Assembly (NCBI GenBank): GCA_029239675.1
Contig: JARBUM010000003.1
Coordinates: 1-64,000 of the forward strand
DNA from: Pelosinus sp.
Lineage (GTDB): Bacteria > Bacillota > Negativicutes > DSM-13327
Direction of reading: 5' to 3'
DNA length: 64,000 nt
The notes beneath the pieces were generated by a model. It was not told the origin of the DNA. It made no database searches and saw only the letters and a program-made list of their open reading frames with translations. This document shows positions 11,506 to 56,325 of the stretch, one piece after another (position 1 is the stretch's first letter; each line of letters begins with the position of its first letter). Made by a program: the position numbers and the translations under genes.

Positions 11506-12180
11506 TCATTCTTTTTCTTGCAATAGCTTTTTGTAATACGAATGAGCCGTATACAAGGCAGCAACTGGATTATGCCCTGTGATCCGATCTTTGGTTACAA
11601 GGGTGGTAACCAGTGCATCTGAGTATTTTGTAAATAAAGAATCGTGCCCTACGCACAGACCAACTACAACATTTAAATCCGTATGATGATAATTTAAAAT
11701 GCGAGCTTGCAGTATTGGGTTGCACATGGCTTCATGACTACCGGGCTTAATTTTATGTTCTTCCAATATACCAATTTCGGCTTTATCGACTGATCCAACT
11801 TTACAAATAGCACTATAATATTCCAAACCTCTAGCCGTAAGAATATCTGCAAAGATCTTTGATTCCTCTATCAGGCCGGCACAAGTTGCAATGCCAATTT
11901 TTTTAGCACCAATACGTTTGGCAAATTCAATAATTTCCTCAACTCTTGTTAATTTGCCATAAAAAATACCTTCTACCTGAGCCGATGCTCTAGCGACAAT
12001 AGCATCCTGTTCATCCCCCTGCAAATAGCTTTTAATTTCTTCAATGTCATCCGCAATAGAATGCCCATCATTATCTTTCGTGGTCAAACAAAAGCCTGGG
12101 AACTGGTTACTCCTGCTCCTACAATTGTAAATACTGCAATCTGTGCAGCTTAAGCTTTCTAGATTTTTTTCTCTACCCAC
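11506..12180 (-). CDS. DUF1847 putative metal-binding protein
   Basis: 224 residues. The N-terminal Cys cluster CTDCSIYNCRS plus a downstream CLT and later conserved cysteines (ATCAG, ICKVGS, EAMCNP, VGLCVGHDS) match the DUF1847 family of Cys-rich, probably metal- or Fe-S-binding proteins found mainly in anaerobes. GTG at 12180 is chosen because AATGGAGG lies 8 nt upstream; the longer frame overlaps the upstream gene. It sits between the DUF2292 gene and the cystine-type importer. The biochemical function is unknown. Confidence 0.85.
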   Translation of the reverse strand: MGREKNLESLSCTDCSIYNCRSRSNQFPGFCLTTKDNDGHSIADDIEEIKSYLQGDEQDAIVARASAQVEGIFYGKLTRVEEIIEFAKRIGAKKIGIATCAGLIEESKIFADILTARGLEYYSAICKVGSVDKAEIGILEEHKIKPGSHEAMCNPILQARILNYHHTDLNVVVGLCVGHDSLFTKYSDALVTTLVTKDRITGHNPVAALYTAHSYYKKLLQEKE

Positions 12181-12196
12181 AATAATACCTCCATTT

Positions 12197-12586
12197 TTAT
12201 ATACCATCACCATACAAACCTTCTAGTTCATCAAAACGTCTTTTCTCTGTTTTTTCGATTTGTCCCACTTGACCATTATTCACATGAATTACTAATTGCC
12301 CATACTGTATGCTTTGCAAATCAGATAAGATTTTTACTTGTATAGAATGCTTTTTCTTTACTTTTTCTTTTGATGAAATTCTCTTTTCTTGGCTTTTTGC
12401 GGAAATAATAAACTTTTCTATTTTATCTATTTTGACAACAAAACCATCTTGAATTATTAAGATTAAATGTCCAAACTGTACATCTAATAAAAACTGTTCA
12501 ATAATATCAAACACCTGAGAAGGTAAAGGTTTTATCGGCGCCCTTACATTTGCTACATTATTCTTGCTACCGGCATGGGACTGCAA
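12197..12586 (-). CDS. Tandem DUF2292 (YezD-like) protein
   Basis: 129 residues with two copies of the roughly 45-residue DUF2292 motif. The first is around residues 25-65 (FGHLILIIQDGFVVKIDKIEK), the second around 80-120 (YGQLVIHVNNGQVGQIEKTEK). They are joined by a Lys/Ser-rich linker. YezD-type proteins are small, of unknown function, and often sit beside sulfur-uptake genes. The start is TTG at 12586 with AAGGAGG 8 nt upstream. The duplication is unusual because most family members have one copy. Confidence 0.82.
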   Translation of the reverse strand: MQSHAGSKNNVANVRAPIKPLPSQVFDIIEQFLLDVQFGHLILIIQDGFVVKIDKIEKFIISAKSQEKRISSKEKVKKKHSIQVKILSDLQSIQYGQLVIHVNNGQVGQIEKTEKRRFDELEGLYGDGI

Positions 12587-12611
12587 TATAAAAACCTCCT
12601 TAAATAAGGTA

Positions 12612-12664
12612 AAGGCAAAGAAACTCCCTTAGAATTCTTTGCCTTCAGTTTATTTCTGATCAGC
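12612..12664 (-). promoter_or_regulatory. Third copy of the sulfur-leader motif with hairpin
   Basis: On the minus strand GCTGATCAG (12664-12656), a 7-nt A/T loop and CTGAAGGC (12648-12641) are followed by an 11-bp stem (12645-12635 with 12622-12612) and a weak T-rich tail, just before the DUF2292 ribosome site. This matches the two motif-plus-terminator units ahead of the DUF2325 gene (15891-16020). It may regulate the downstream half of the cluster by attenuation or processing. Confidence 0.55.
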
Positions 12665-12687: not shown

Positions 12688-13686
12688 TTATTTTACTCCT
12701 GGCAAGGGAACAAAGATTTTTTTCTTCAATTGCTCAGGATCTGTACTGGGATCTAAAACACCGATCGTTTTCATTTCACGAACAGCATTATCCACAGCTT
12801 TTCTGCCACCATCAACGGATGGTATATAATTGTAACTCTTTAAAAGTTTAGCCACCAACTCTACATTTCCTGGAATATATTTCTTATCAATTATTAATTT
12901 AGCAGCCTCATCTTGATGTTCTTGCACCCATTGAGCACCTTTCATCATACCGCGAGTAATGGCTGCAGCTGTTGCTGGATCTTCACGATAGAGTTTACCG
13001 CTAATGGTTGCCATGCAGCAATATTCATCATGATAAGGCATATCATGTGCACTATTAAGTAGGGCAACAGCCTTACCTTTGACCACAATCAATTCAGCTA
13101 TAGGATCACTTAAGGTAATTGCATCCGCTTCTCCACGTTCCAATACTCCCTCTAGCTCAGCAGCAGGATAGGATTTCCATTGTACATCTTTCTTATAATC
13201 AAGTCCTGCATGTGCCAAAGCGCGAGATGCAAGTATCATAGGTCCATCACCCATACCATTATTGGCAATTATTTTACCCTTTAAATCAGCTACACTCTTA
13301 ATATTGGAATCTGGTTTTACTAAAATTTGCAAACAACCTGTGTGAATACCCGAGGCAAAAACAGCATCTACTCCTTGTTCAAAAGGTTTAACCCACTTCA
13401 TTACCATACCACTTGAAGCATCAACTTTTCCCGTTGCCAAAGATTCTTTTAAAGTCTCAAAATCCACTTTAACAAGTTCAACATCCAATCCTTCCTCTTT
13501 AAATAAACCTTTTTCGTAAGCGCTGAATAGAAAAGCTTCACACGCGCCACCTGAATAACCAATTTTAACCTTTTTGGGTCCTGATGCTGCAGGGGCTGTT
13601 GTCTGACTTTGACCACAGCCACCTATTAAAATTGTCATGAGTAATATAAAAATTAGACCAGTAATCATCAAATACTTCTTTTTCAT
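12688..13686 (-). CDS. Sulfonate/nitrate-type ABC transporter, binding lipoprotein
   Basis: 332 residues. Lipobox TILIGGC with Cys24, then an NMT1/SsuA/TauA-type periplasmic-binding fold (KIGYSGGACEAFLFSAYEKGLF). The mature protein has four extra cysteines in GGACEAF, IHTGCLQ and DEYCCMA, unusual for an exported receptor and possibly ligand- or metal-related. ATG at 13686 follows GGGAGAG; the longer frame lacks a ribosome site. Substrate is inferred to be an organosulfur compound because of the neighbours; nitrate or thiamine precursor cannot be excluded. Confidence 0.85.
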   Translation of the reverse strand: MKKKYLMITGLIFILLMTILIGGCGQSQTTAPAASGPKKVKIGYSGGACEAFLFSAYEKGLFKEEGLDVELVKVDFETLKESLATGKVDASSGMVMKWVKPFEQGVDAVFASGIHTGCLQILVKPDSNIKSVADLKGKIIANNGMGDGPMILASRALAHAGLDYKKDVQWKSYPAAELEGVLERGEADAITLSDPIAELIVVKGKAVALLNSAHDMPYHDEYCCMATISGKLYREDPATAAAITRGMMKGAQWVQEHQDEAAKLIIDKKYIPGNVELVAKLLKSYNYIPSVDGGRKAVDNAVREMKTIGVLDPSTDPEQLKKKIFVPLPGVK

Positions 13687-13726
13687 CTTATCTCTCCCTA
13701 ACTTTTTTATTTTAAAAACATGTAGC

Positions 13727-14536
13727 TTATAAATAGTATTCCGGTTTATTTTTTTCAGCAAAGTGCAGTAATTCTAAAATATCGGACCTAATCTCAAAAA
13801 AATCTGGGTAATTACGACTTCGAGGACGTTCAATACCAATATCAAAAACCTTTGCAATTTTTCCTGGCCGTGGAGTCATAACTACCACTCTATCACTTAA
13901 ATAAATCGCTTCATCAATATCATGTGTAACGAAAACAATGGTAGTACCTCGATCCTTCCAAATACGCAAAATCTCATCTTGCATATTCATACGGGTGAAT
14001 GCATCCAGTGCTCCTAATGGTTCATCCATAAGTAATACTTTAGGATGATTCACTAAAGCTCTCGCTAGTGCGGCTCGCTGAGCCATACCACCTGATAATT
14101 GGTAAGGATATGAACTTTCAAAACCGGCTAAACCTACCAGTTGAATATATTCGTCAACCTCCTCTTCCTTCTCTTTCAAAATACCTCGCGCATCCAGGCC
14201 AACGGCTACATTTTTTCGAATTGTTAACCAAGGGAATAAGGTAGGATCCTGAAATACTAATCCCCTAAAATAATGAGGACCAGCGACTACTTCATTATCT
14301 AGTGCAATACTGCCAGAAGTAGGTGTATCCAATCCTGCAATGAGCCTAAGTAATGTAGACTTCCCACAACCACTGGGGCCAAGTAATGAAATAAATTCAC
14401 CTGGTCTAATGTCCAGGTTTACGGCTTCTAGCGCTGTAATATTCCCACCTGTAGGATCAACAAATAACTTTTGTACATTATTAACTGCTAAAGCTCCGCT
14501 ACCATCAGAGATTTTTTTTACTGCTGCTATTACCAT
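13727..14536 (-). CDS. Sulfonate/nitrate-type ABC transporter, ATPase
   Basis: 269 residues of the SsuB/TauB/NrtD family. Walker A GPSGCGKST, signature LSGGMAQRAALARAL, Walker B VLLMDEPLGALD, H-loop FVTHDIDEA. ATG at 14536 overlaps the permease stop by 7 nt and is preceded by AAAGGAT; the longer GTG frame from 14557 would place that site inside the gene. Translational coupling with the permease is likely. Confidence 0.9.
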   Translation of the reverse strand: MVIAAVKKISDGSGALAVNNVQKLFVDPTGGNITALEAVNLDIRPGEFISLLGPSGCGKSTLLRLIAGLDTPTSGSIALDNEVVAGPHYFRGLVFQDPTLFPWLTIRKNVAVGLDARGILKEKEEEVDEYIQLVGLAGFESSYPYQLSGGMAQRAALARALVNHPKVLLMDEPLGALDAFTRMNMQDEILRIWKDRGTTIVFVTHDIDEAIYLSDRVVVMTPRPGKIAKVFDIGIERPRSRNYPDFFEIRSDILELLHFAEKNKPEYYL

Positions 14537-15552
14537 TTGATCAATCCTTTCTGCCACACTAGCACCTCATCCCGTACTTTAAACAATAAGGTAATAATAC
14601 CTGAGAAAAGCACCGACATTACAATAAGTGCAGCATATACCTTACTAAATTCGGCCCAACCTTGTGCCCAAGTAATGAACCAACCGAGACCAGCTTTTAC
14701 ACCTAGCATTTCACCAACAATTAATGTAACAAAAGCCACACCCATACTCATAAATAATCCAACAAAAATCGATGGCATTGCCGCTGGCAGTGCAACTCTC
14801 GTTATTAAGTAAAATTCACTAGCACCAAGACTTCGAGCAACCTCATAATACGCTTTATTCACATTAGCAATACCAGACCAGGTCATAACTGTAATCGGGA
14901 ACCAGCAAGCCAAAACCAATAAAAATATACTCGCCGTAAAGCTACTTGGAAATGCAACCATGGCAAGAGGAATCCAAGCCGTTGCCGGAATGGGACCAAT
15001 GGAGCGTAGAATTGGATTTACCCAGTAATGAAATCTAGGATACCATCCCATCAATACTCCTGTTGGTAACCCGAGTAAAACGCCTAACCCATAACCAATT
15101 AATAGCAACCTGAGAGAATATAAAGCGCTGATCCCCAGAGTTTCCCATTCATTAATTAATGCAGCTGTCACCGCGGCTGGCGAAGGAAAATAAGGCAGTG
15201 GTAACAATGCCAGTTTTAATGTTACGAAATCCCAAACAATCAAAAACCCTGCGAATGCAGCTAAAAGCGGTGCCTTTTCCAGAAATTTCGACCAGAATGC
15301 AGGAAATTTATTGGCCCCAATTCCAGCTACAGCAAAAATCACAACAAGTACTTCTATAATCCAAGTAAAGTAAGGTTTCTGGAAAAAAGGCTGACGATTC
15401 TGTAATAAGGTATGCTCAGCTAAGAGCAAGGCTACAAAAATAAATGGCAATAGAGCAGATATCTCTCTATTGATGAAGGAAACATTGCTAACAACAATAT
15501 TTTCGTTCACTTTAGCAATCAACGTCTGTTTGACACTTGTAGTATCCGGCAT
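14530..15552 (-). CDS. Sulfonate/nitrate-type ABC transporter, permease
   Basis: 340 residues. It has an N-terminal extension of about 90 residues with two or three membrane segments, then the SsuC/TauC-type BPD_transp_1 domain with the EAA-like loop YEVARSLGASEFYLITRVALPAAMP. AAGGAGG precedes ATG at 15552. The extension makes it longer than the roughly 260 residues of typical SsuC. Confidence 0.88.
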   Translation of the reverse strand: MPDTTSVKQTLIAKVNENIVVSNVSFINREISALLPFIFVALLLAEHTLLQNRQPFFQKPYFTWIIEVLVVIFAVAGIGANKFPAFWSKFLEKAPLLAAFAGFLIVWDFVTLKLALLPLPYFPSPAAVTAALINEWETLGISALYSLRLLLIGYGLGVLLGLPTGVLMGWYPRFHYWVNPILRSIGPIPATAWIPLAMVAFPSSFTASIFLLVLACWFPITVMTWSGIANVNKAYYEVARSLGASEFYLITRVALPAAMPSIFVGLFMSMGVAFVTLIVGEMLGVKAGLGWFITWAQGWAEFSKVYAALIVMSVLFSGIITLLFKVRDEVLVWQKGLIKW

Positions 15553-15573: not shown

Positions 15574-15870
15574 TTATCCTAGTCTTCTAAAATTTAAAGC
15601 AACTAATTTATCCTGTAATGAGCTCCAAGAGCGATTGGCAAATACCAGGGGAACACCTTGAGATTTGGCCATTTGTTTGATATTCCTGGCTGTCGTATGA
15701 TTAATATAGTCAATAAAAATAACAATTAAAGTTGTAGATAACGGAAACTTAAACCGTTTTCGGTCGGAAACATTTCTACCAGTGACATGATCAATCGAGT
15801 AAATTCCTAAAGTTTGCAAGTTCTTTTCAATATTCCCTAAATGATCGGCGCCGACAAGCATAATTGACAT
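15574..15870 (-). CDS. DUF2325 protein
   Basis: 98 residues. It starts MSIMLVGADHLGNIEKNLQ and has the VTGR and IDYINHTTARNIKQMAKSQ segments of DUF2325, a small Rossmann-like domain of unknown function. It is the first gene of the sulfur cluster and lies 21 nt upstream of the permease. AAGGAGGTGAG precedes the ATG. DUF2325 genes are often found next to transporters and may have a regulatory or sensing role; this is inference. Confidence 0.8.
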   Translation of the reverse strand: MSIMLVGADHLGNIEKNLQTLGIYSIDHVTGRNVSDRKRFKFPLSTTLIVIFIDYINHTTARNIKQMAKSQGVPLVFANRSWSSLQDKLVALNFRRLG

Positions 15871-15890: not shown

Positions 15891-15930
15891 AAAAAAGCTG
15901 ATTTCTTCGCGTTTGCGAAAAAATCAGCCT
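15891..15930 (-). terminator. Leader terminator 2 of the sulfur cluster
   Basis: GCTGATTTCTTCGC (15897-15910) pairs with 15915-15928 with one mismatch; six T residues follow on the minus strand, directly before the DUF2325 ribosome site. Transcripts must read through it to express the cluster, so it is an attenuator rather than the end of comEA, which lies upstream beyond the cluster promoter. Confidence 0.85.
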
Positions 15931-15950
15931 CTGGTTATCCAGTCAGCTTT
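15931..15950 (-). promoter_or_regulatory. Sulfur-leader motif, unit 2
   Basis: Minus strand reads GCTGA-CTGG-ATAA-CCAG-AGGC. The CTGG/CCAG arms form a 4-bp mini-hairpin with a 4-nt loop, abutting the 5' arm of terminator 2. It corresponds to unit 1 at 15998-16019 and to the copy at 12641-12664. Confidence 0.55.
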
Positions 15951-15957
15951 AACATAT

Positions 15958-16000
15958 AAAAAAGACTAAAAGAACCCCTAAAATAGGATTACTTTTAGCC
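15958..16000 (-). terminator. Leader terminator 1 of the sulfur cluster
   Basis: GGCTAAAAG (16000-15992) pairs with CTTTTAGTC (15972-15964), with further inner pairing AATCC/GGGGTT, followed by TTTTTT on the minus strand. It is the first of two tandem terminators in the leader. Confidence 0.75.
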
Positions 16001-16019
16001 TTCAGTTGTCCTGATCAGC
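15998..16019 (-). promoter_or_regulatory. Sulfur-leader motif, unit 1
   Basis: Minus strand reads GCTGATCAG-GACAA-CTGAAGGC. CAG/CTG arms bracket the 5-nt loop, and the terminal GGC begins the 5' arm of terminator 1. Units 1 and 2 are separate copies of the same arrangement within 120 nt. Confidence 0.55.
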
Positions 16020-16042
16020 AATGATTTATTATATTTTTAAAT

Positions 16043-16071
16043 AATGTAACATGAATAGGAATTCATGTCAA
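16043..16071 (-). promoter_or_regulatory. Promoter of the sulfur cluster with palindromic spacer
   Basis: -35 TTGACA (16066-16071), 17-nt spacer, -10 TACATT (16043-16048) on the minus strand. A perfect palindrome, ACATGAAT-TCCT-ATTCATGT (16049-16068), fills the spacer and touches the -35. This is the expected position of a repressor operator. The AATAGGAATT core recalls CymR boxes of Bacillus sulfur genes, from memory and not verified. Confidence 0.65.
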
Positions 16072-22160: not shown

Positions 22161-22166
22161 AATAAT

Positions 22167-56127: not shown

Positions 56128-56156
56128 AAGCAAGAAATTAAATATGTTGTGATTAT

Positions 56157-56325
56157 AGAGGCGCAAGTATTATTAGTATATATAGTGAGCTGGCAGCAAT
56201 GAACTATATTGAAAGGAATAATTGCCGAAACAAAAAAAATGCCGTTTTTTTTTGTTGGGCTTGTATTCAATAAGTACAAGACTGTCACCTAAAATGCATT
56301 TAGGTGAAGTGCTATCTCACACAAG
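56157..56325 (+). promoter_or_regulatory. Lysine riboswitch (L-box)
   Basis: Conserved L-box blocks appear in order: GAGGCGCAAG, AGTATATATAG, GAAAGGAATAATTGCCGAA, TGTTGGGCTTG, ACTGTCACC and GAAGTGCTATCTC. The 3' strand CTATCTCACAC can pair with GTGTGAGAT-like sequence of the downstream terminator (56357-56380), giving a lysine-dependent attenuator. Confidence 0.93.

Follow-up and report, generated by a model that had tools for sequence, protein, structure and literature searches.

A short internal-loop hairpin ahead of intrinsic terminators of sulfur genes in Pelosinus and its relatives, and DUF2292 as its candidate reader

The units and their gene cluster

The window, that is, the whole stretch of 64,000 nucleotides of Pelosinus sp. 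DNA that was analysed, carries on its minus strand a cluster that is opened by a DUF2325 gene and includes an NMT1-type ABC transporter. The genes that matter here are:

15574–15870, minus: DUF2325 gene, 98 aa, first behind the double unit (PF10087, E 7e-13)
14530–15552, minus: ABC permease (BPD_transp_1, profile search)
13727–14557, minus: ABC ATPase (profile search)
12688–13761, minus: NMT1-like substrate-binding protein (PF09084/PF13379)
12197–12586, minus: DUF2292 gene with two DUF2292 domains, behind unit 3 (PF10055, E 1.3e-16)
11506–12213, minus: DUF1847 gene, next in the cluster after DUF2292 (PF08901)

The PF10055 match to the DUF2292 gene scores 60.3 bits against a curated cut-off of 22 and falls into two stretches. 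The substrate-binding protein, which we take to be of the sulfonate/taurine type, has TTG as its listed ORF start, and the true start probably lies further in. DUF1847 is followed by a family-3 solute-binding protein, transporter-like ORFs, and a class I/II aminotransferase-family protein.

Three short hairpins, each running into an intrinsic terminator, lie in this cluster, two of them (units 1 and 2) in series before the DUF2325 gene and the third before the DUF2292 gene. Each begins with GCTGA and ends with AGGC:

16043–16071, minus: promoter-like TTGACA and TACATT, 17 nt apart, with TG ahead of the second hexamer, some 23 nt upstream of unit 1 (consensus scan)
15998–16019, minus: candidate antiterminator hairpin of unit 1, stem TCAG/CTGA, loop GACAA, GCTGATCAGGACAACTGAAGGC (sequence, pattern scan, fold)
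15963–16001, minus: terminator stem of unit 1, T-run to 15958, AGGC shared with the hairpin (fold)
15927–15947, minus: candidate antiterminator hairpin of unit 2, stem CTGG/CCAG, loop ATAA, GCTGACTGGATAACCAGAGGC (sequence, fold)
15895–15930, minus: terminator stem of unit 2 (fold and consensus terminator scan)
12641–12664, minus: candidate antiterminator hairpin of unit 3, stem TCAG/CTGA, loop AAATAAA, GCTGATCAGAAATAAACTGAAGGC (sequence, pattern scan, fold)
12610–12647, minus: terminator of unit 3, with a stem that extends into the hairpin's 3′ arm, CTGAAGGC (minimum-energy fold)

The element measures 21–24 nt. It is built from an outer helix (GCY/RGC), an internal loop of GA/A, and an inner helix of 4 bp in which compensatory changes occur. 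Folded in isolation, all three window units place 90–95% of their ensemble in the structure (((..((((...)))).))), as does a Pseudomonas copy with 83%, while a copy from genome G065 forms the inner helix only; the intended fold was thus reached in silico by four of the five copies. The terminator z-scores are −3.9, −6.1, and −2.9 for units 1, 2, and 3, and in all three the 5′ arm of the terminator starts at or just before AGGC. The terminator of unit 1 was not among the matches of the consensus terminator scan, though it was found by folding. Sequence and fold bear out the initial annotation, which had described two serial terminators in the DUF2325 leader, each after the same short element. 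Its account of that element as GCTGA, a mini-hairpin, and an AGGC whose GGC starts the terminator also stands, except that the mini-hairpin is not alone, the 3-bp outer helix and the GA/A loop being part of the structure too. Since the outer helix uses GGC as well, this triplet can pair in either of two alternative helices.

Within the window, the letters alone carry little weight as evidence, because the loose pattern GCTGA-N9-20-AGGC is barely above chance there (9 matches against 4.3 expected, with 2 of 100 shuffles reaching 9). The promoter-like site matches 10 of 12 consensus positions and is only suggestive of a promoter for the unit 1 leader, as two such sites occur in the region where 1.1 are expected from shuffles. 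By eye, a perfect 7-bp inverted repeat (CATGAAT and ATTCATG around TCCT; 16067–16050, minus) lies inside the −35/−10 spacer of this site and may be a repressor operator.

With regard to known RNA classes, Rfam 15 (4227 families) gave no match between 11400 and 16300 at E<=10, SAM-I (S box, RF00162) included, in keeping with the original statement that the units fit no known leader RNA. A scan of six other loci (E<=5) detected three SAM riboswitches beside motif copies, together with six weak matches (E 0.3–4, far below gathering score), of which P26 in one locus (L042, E 2.9) overlaps a motif copy. Known Rfam classes were rejected as the identity of the element on the basis of these scans.

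Conservation of the element and the genes behind it

A stem pattern derived solely from the window, GCTGATCAGN{3,10}CTGAAGGC, was found in 26 of 40 genomes, its own genome counted, and the pattern read backward in 0 of 40. Up to 13 copies per genome were detected with the exact pattern, and up to 29 in relatives with the model R1. In a relaxed scan of the fetched loci (paired stem, at most one mismatch), 127 instances were obtained, compared with 5 in reversed sequences. The inner stems include TCAG/CTGA, CTGG/CCAG, CCAG/CTGG, TTAG/CTAA, TTGG/CCAA, TCGG/CCGA, CTAG/CTAG, and GCAG/CTGC. For the structure given above, an alignment of 93 rows (95 unique motifs minus L106, L152, and L174, plus L010) that had been preselected for a 4-bp stem contains 53 double-change cells, against 10.5 in shuffles. 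Among instances taken blind to the stem, 95 of 103 have four of four pairs and the reversed sequence yields a single instance; 25 stems of this set differ from TCAG/CTGA, of which 17 keep four pairs and 5 keep three. The outer helix shows one-sided changes that preserve pairing (U-G 7, C-G 4, and U-A 1 in the 93 rows), and its first pair is broken in five rows.

The coupling to terminators is also recurrent. A strong hairpin (score >=7) directly before a T-run follows 62 of 82 exact sites, and 50 of these 62 terminators begin within −2 to +1 of the A of AGGC, compared with a terminator at any offset for 41 of 2000 random positions; a strict terminator is absent at the remaining 20 sites. Double units before DUF2325 were found in four other genomes as well (L003/L031, L039, L042, and L048). 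It was considered whether the units are simply terminators of the usual sort whose flank arose by chance or from a repeat, such as a mobile one. Many copies occur per genome and an identical motif pair stands 148 nt apart in one contig (G000:C265), as a repeat might. However, flanks and terminator stems differ between copies, compensatory changes are seen in the inner stems, and the copies sit before unrelated sulfur genes, by which this reading, now very remote, is already contradicted.

Chance matches do exist among the sites scanned. In the named-genome scan with the exact pattern, 28 of 120 sites among the matches listed passed the terminator test, and many matches, mostly from Proteobacteria and other phyla, were set aside as chance. 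Four loci that passed the test (L106, L152, L174, and L185) were rejected as coding or GC-rich chance by eye. The identical pair in G000:C265 (L322, 321–345 and 469–493) has near-identical terminators and seems to have arisen when the switch was duplicated in tandem not long ago.

The target list, from which the four rejected loci were left out, holds 121 distinct downstream genes in 47 clusters. Representatives of 30 clusters were put to NCBIfam, 2 of them without a match, and 15 further clusters are unnamed. For 14 clusters (52 of the 121 genes) the best match of the representative is a sulfur-assimilation protein, and 9 of these clusters (39 genes) exceed the curated cut-off, namely cysK (17 genes), sulfate-binding protein (7), O-acetylhomoserine sulfhydrylase (3), LarE (3), CysH (3), PatB (2), Sat (2), MetA (1), and sulfopropanediol dehydratase (1); NifH (4) and NifB (4) are above it as well. 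Best matches below the cut-off are MetN (5), NifE-like (5), YeiH (4), SsuA (3, in two clusters), sulfite reductase C (3), and cystine-binding protein (2), while the DUF2292 (7) and DUF2325 (6) clusters were named by eye or with their own profiles. The motif thus also precedes cystine- and sulfonate-type transporters and nitrogenase-like genes, and there are targets with no obvious sulfur link, such as corrinoid and MtaA-type proteins, DapA-like, TrmO, and others. In the genome of the window itself, R1 finds 16 copies. Of the eleven that were read outside the window, eight precede a gene that could be placed by eye, namely cysK, a binding protein and a permease of the cystine type, a TcyP-like symporter, two PLP sulfhydrylase-like genes, one resembling sulfite reductase, and one for an adenylate-forming enzyme.

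Both the element and its sulfur regulon are firmly supported. Relatives show conservation as well as covariation, the absence of which had been named beforehand as a ground for giving up the idea; a match to a known Rfam class, a second such ground, did not turn up in the scans either. Together with the targets, these findings agree with the earlier proposal of a cis-regulatory attenuator of no assigned class that has sulfur genes as its regulon. As a separate observation, the motif stands before NifH-, NifB-, and NifE-type genes at four loci (L032, L034, L037, and L096); such targets may, we presume, be sulfur-salvage relatives of nitrogenase, e.g., methylthio-alkane reductase, rather than nitrogenase.

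Association with DUF2292

Of the 40 genomes, 28 have DUF2292 (PF10055). It occurs together with the exact pattern in 25 and alone in 3, while the motif alone is found in 1 and neither of them in 11 (Fisher p 2e-6); R1, which matches 27 of the 40, gives 26 genomes with both, 2 with DUF2292 only, 1 with the motif only, and 11 with neither (p 4e-7), values that overstate independence because the genomes are related. Two genomes of the same class (G019 and G036) have DUF2292 without the motif. The single match in G029, GC-rich and with no terminator seen, was treated as chance, yet is still counted as a mismatch. In a sample of 299 genomes of the phylum, 6 of the 7 with the exact pattern carry DUF2292, compared with 46 of 299 overall (p 6e-5). 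At E<1e-4, R1 matches 26 genomes of the sample, 20 of them with DUF2292, an agreement that is inflated since some of the loci used to train R1 had been picked for their DUF2292 genes and that includes one genome (G125) resting on a match without a terminator. As for the six R1 genomes lacking DUF2292, three show no terminator, two are incomplete (93% and 85%) and have genus mates with DUF2292, and one is G115, where by eye the motif and terminator (L233) lie in phage-like sequence and DUF2292 is undetected. Among the named matches listed, seven Bacillota and two Deltaproteobacteria MAGs have motif and terminator, and 9 of 9 have DUF2292; two Pseudomonas with pattern matches but no terminator carry it too.

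A motif lies within 300 nt of 33 of 79 distinct DUF2292 ORFs (25 downstream, 12 upstream; 46 without), a set that leaves out Pseudomonas and one further set of loci. When all 119 ORFs are taken, the figure is 34, with none of 119 on the opposite strand; DUF2292 is directly upstream of the motif in 26 and behind it in 12. In the former arrangement, the gene stands where a regulator, and not a gene under its control, would be expected. The shortest distances from DUF2292 to a downstream motif are 3–33 nt, Sat-, CysH-, or SsuC-like genes come next in several cases, and at one locus (L250) motif and DUF2292 stop codon overlap. Twenty DUF2292 regions from 19 genomes were picked because R1 had no match beside the gene; in 3 of them the same architecture directly follows the stop codon, where 0.45 such cases are expected, and in the other 17, three genomes of 6–7 Mb among them, it was not found.

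In two Bacillaceae loci, L249 and L251, the order is SAM riboswitch, DUF2292, motif, terminator, cysH-like gene, and in a third locus the riboswitch has another place (all by Rfam scan):

L249 1834–1727, minus: SAM riboswitch upstream of DUF2292
L251 1256–1368, plus: SAM riboswitch upstream of DUF2292
L085 9162–9055, minus: SAM riboswitch shortly behind a same-strand DUF2292 ORF

This proximity suggests a cascade of sensors.

DUF2292 proteins have roughly 50–160 aa, and in this class the domains are mostly paired, either in adjacent genes (L051 in G011, L052/L080 in G022, and L053/L079 in G031) or fused, as if a dimer had been fused. A predicted model of the window protein (pLDDT 67.5, five sequences) has two helix-strand-strand repeats; it matched no PDB structure at E<=0.001, its sequence had no PDB relative at E<=1, and the predicted fold gave no hint of RNA binding. 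The function of DUF2292 is not described in the open literature searched, most subscription papers being beyond that search. In the accessible parts of PMC3862929 and PMC6385201, yezD is mentioned only in expression tables and as one of five genes that could be deleted with viability retained.

In Pseudomonas, one DUF2292 gene was found in each of 31 genomes searched. In the 31 loci read (30 of the searched genomes plus L252), a sulfate-binding protein gene always comes next after DUF2292. The DUF2292 gene of Pseudomonas is presumably oscA, given its position. GA/A hairpins such as CCCGACTGGACAACCGGAGGG, CCCGACTGGACAACCAGAGGG, CTCGACTGGACAACCGGAGAG, and CCCGACCGGACCACCGGAGGG lie 10–23 nt behind the DUF2292 stop codon in 7 of the 31, where shuffles lead one to expect 0.18; the full hairpin is absent behind oscA in the other 24, one of which (L272) is a near miss. 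Compared with unit 2, the GA/A loop and inner stem match, and the outer helix is different yet paired. The mode of control in Pseudomonas may differ from a terminator switch. Loss of oscA in Pseudomonas corrugata is said, after Viti in 2009, to impair the use of organosulfur compounds. In the accessible part of PMC2996968, inactivation of oscA in this species is cited as causing Cr(VI) susceptibility, and the oscA-sbp unit as overexpressed after chromate. OscA as portrayed there resembles the protein considered here in being small, of unknown function, encoded in an oscA-sbp unit, and linked to sulfate starvation and Cr(VI); on the other hand, that part of the source mentions neither an RNA element nor an RNA-binding role.

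A possible antitermination switch

Taken as a whole, the units are probably sites of a transcription antiterminator of sulfur starvation, with DUF2292 (YezD/OscA) as the most likely binder. As the sequences show, the hairpin follows either a promoter-like site or a DUF2292 gene. In this scheme, the protein would bind the internal loop and hold the hairpin closed, by which GGC would be kept from pairing and polymerase would read through into the sulfur genes; without bound protein, the terminator would win. What carries the signal may be the quantity of DUF2292 and not a ligand bound to RNA, a possibility raised by the SAM riboswitch upstream of DUF2292 in the two Bacillaceae loci. Two serial units before DUF2325 would tighten the off state.

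The switch logic follows from the letters themselves. GGC serves as the 3′ side of the outer helix and the 5′ foot of the terminator, so the outer helix and the terminator base are mutually exclusive. In unit 3 the 3′ arm of the hairpin is also taken by the terminator in the minimum-energy fold, which makes hairpin and terminator mutually exclusive, and the letters of the G065 copy let its terminator take CTGGAGATA whole. As GGC is shared and these two terminators take the 3′ arm, closing of the hairpin should hinder termination, as judged from sequence and predicted folds. By structure prediction there is thus a leader terminator with a mutually exclusive upstream structure, the mark of an intrinsic-terminator attenuator. 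The sign could be reversed, with bound protein stabilising the terminator and attenuation occurring when sulfur is ample. The minimum-energy fold of units 1 and 2, in which inner hairpin and terminator can coexist, stacked, would suit such an arrangement; however, it is made improbable by the outer helix taking GGC from the terminator, by the terminators of unit 3 and G065 taking the hairpin arm, and by the harm that oscA loss does in P. corrugata under chromate, as cited in the accessible part of PMC2996968.

DUF2292 as reader of the element is the best-supported step of the antiterminator scheme, and is likely in view of co-occurrence and position. Another RNA-binding protein might read the site, with DUF2292 merely a co-regulated sulfur protein. 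DUF2292, lying behind the motif in 12 of 119 cases, could itself be controlled by the switch instead of reading it, and DUF2325, a frequent target (6 of 121), is missing from six motif genomes (G008, G013, G022, G028, G031, and G037), which indicates that targets come and go and for which DUF2325 was rejected as binder. Yet the motif is tracked more closely by DUF2292 than by DUF2325, the two families that were compared for co-occurrence, the link extends to two Deltaproteobacteria MAGs and to Pseudomonas, and the gene often occupies the regulator position directly upstream (26 of 119), so that this alternative appears rather unlikely.

Small-ligand aptamers are as a rule larger than this element. 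A very small riboswitch that directly binds a sulfur metabolite (cysteine, OAS, sulfide, or SAM) would account for the highly conserved internal loop and the mainly sulfur-themed regulon, but seems quite unlikely, for only 11 of 27 alignment columns are at least 90% conserved, no junction or pseudoknot was seen, the hairpin loop is variable in both length (4 to 10 nt) and letters, and presence follows a protein family across phyla. The initial suggestion of an RNA or protein-binding attenuator that senses a sulfur metabolite accordingly survives in its protein-binding half, which the genomic partnership with a small protein family indicates; its other half, an RNA that itself senses the metabolite, fits poorly with a conserved part made up of the internal loop and flanking pairs around a free loop.

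In kind, the element is a known one, a leader attenuator probably governed by a protein. RAT sites of the BglG/SacY/LicT type are short internal-loop hairpins just before a terminator, overlapping the foot of its 5′ arm, and confer protein-dependent readthrough in sugar regulons; the regulator gene often adjoins the site. The units share this layout, but have a sulfur regulon and a candidate DUF2292 protein that is not of the BglG type, and RAT letters and size differ from theirs, as compared by description rather than alignment. PyrR-type attenuators, which belong to the pyrimidine regulon, are alike in having a protein-bound hairpin that competes with a terminator, and no PyrR match was found at the motif in the Rfam scans of the window and six other loci. 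SAM-I riboswitches are likewise leader attenuators of sulfur genes in Bacillota, and both occur in one cysH-type operon at L249 and L251; however, the S box measures about 108 nt and is readily found by Rfam, whereas the motif is a separate element downstream.

In 2010, Naville and Gautheret (PMC2965389) described an attenuator of bacilli that stands before both an unknown gene and a sulfonate ABC operon. In the accessible part of that paper, it is alike in being a premature terminator common to a sulfonate transporter and an unknown gene, and different in that no protein is named; it may be this element, by comparison of descriptions and not of sequences. Apart from that possible glimpse, neither the element nor an RNA class with DUF2292 as partner was described as far as the literature search reached, most subscription papers being beyond it.

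A broader proposal, which falls somewhat short of probable, is that DUF2292/YezD/OscA is an ancient RNA-binding regulator of sulfur starvation in Bacillota, some Deltaproteobacteria, and Pseudomonas, which would read the GA/A hairpin at up to about 29 attenuators per genome, could be chained under a SAM riboswitch, and would use its dose as the signal. If true, the switch would explain the control of sulfur assimilation in many anaerobic and soil Bacillota, provide the first proposed function for DUF2292, and suggest how the OscA phenotype of Pseudomonas, with respect to sulfur and chromate, comes about; a nameless domain and a nameless hairpin would become one testable pair.

Known leader RNAs occur elsewhere in the window. 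T-box leaders (RF00230) are not at the units; the only one at gathering score in the window lies at 22161–21949 (minus), upstream of an ORF reading as leucyl-tRNA synthetase. In addition, a lysine riboswitch is located at 56148–56322 (plus).
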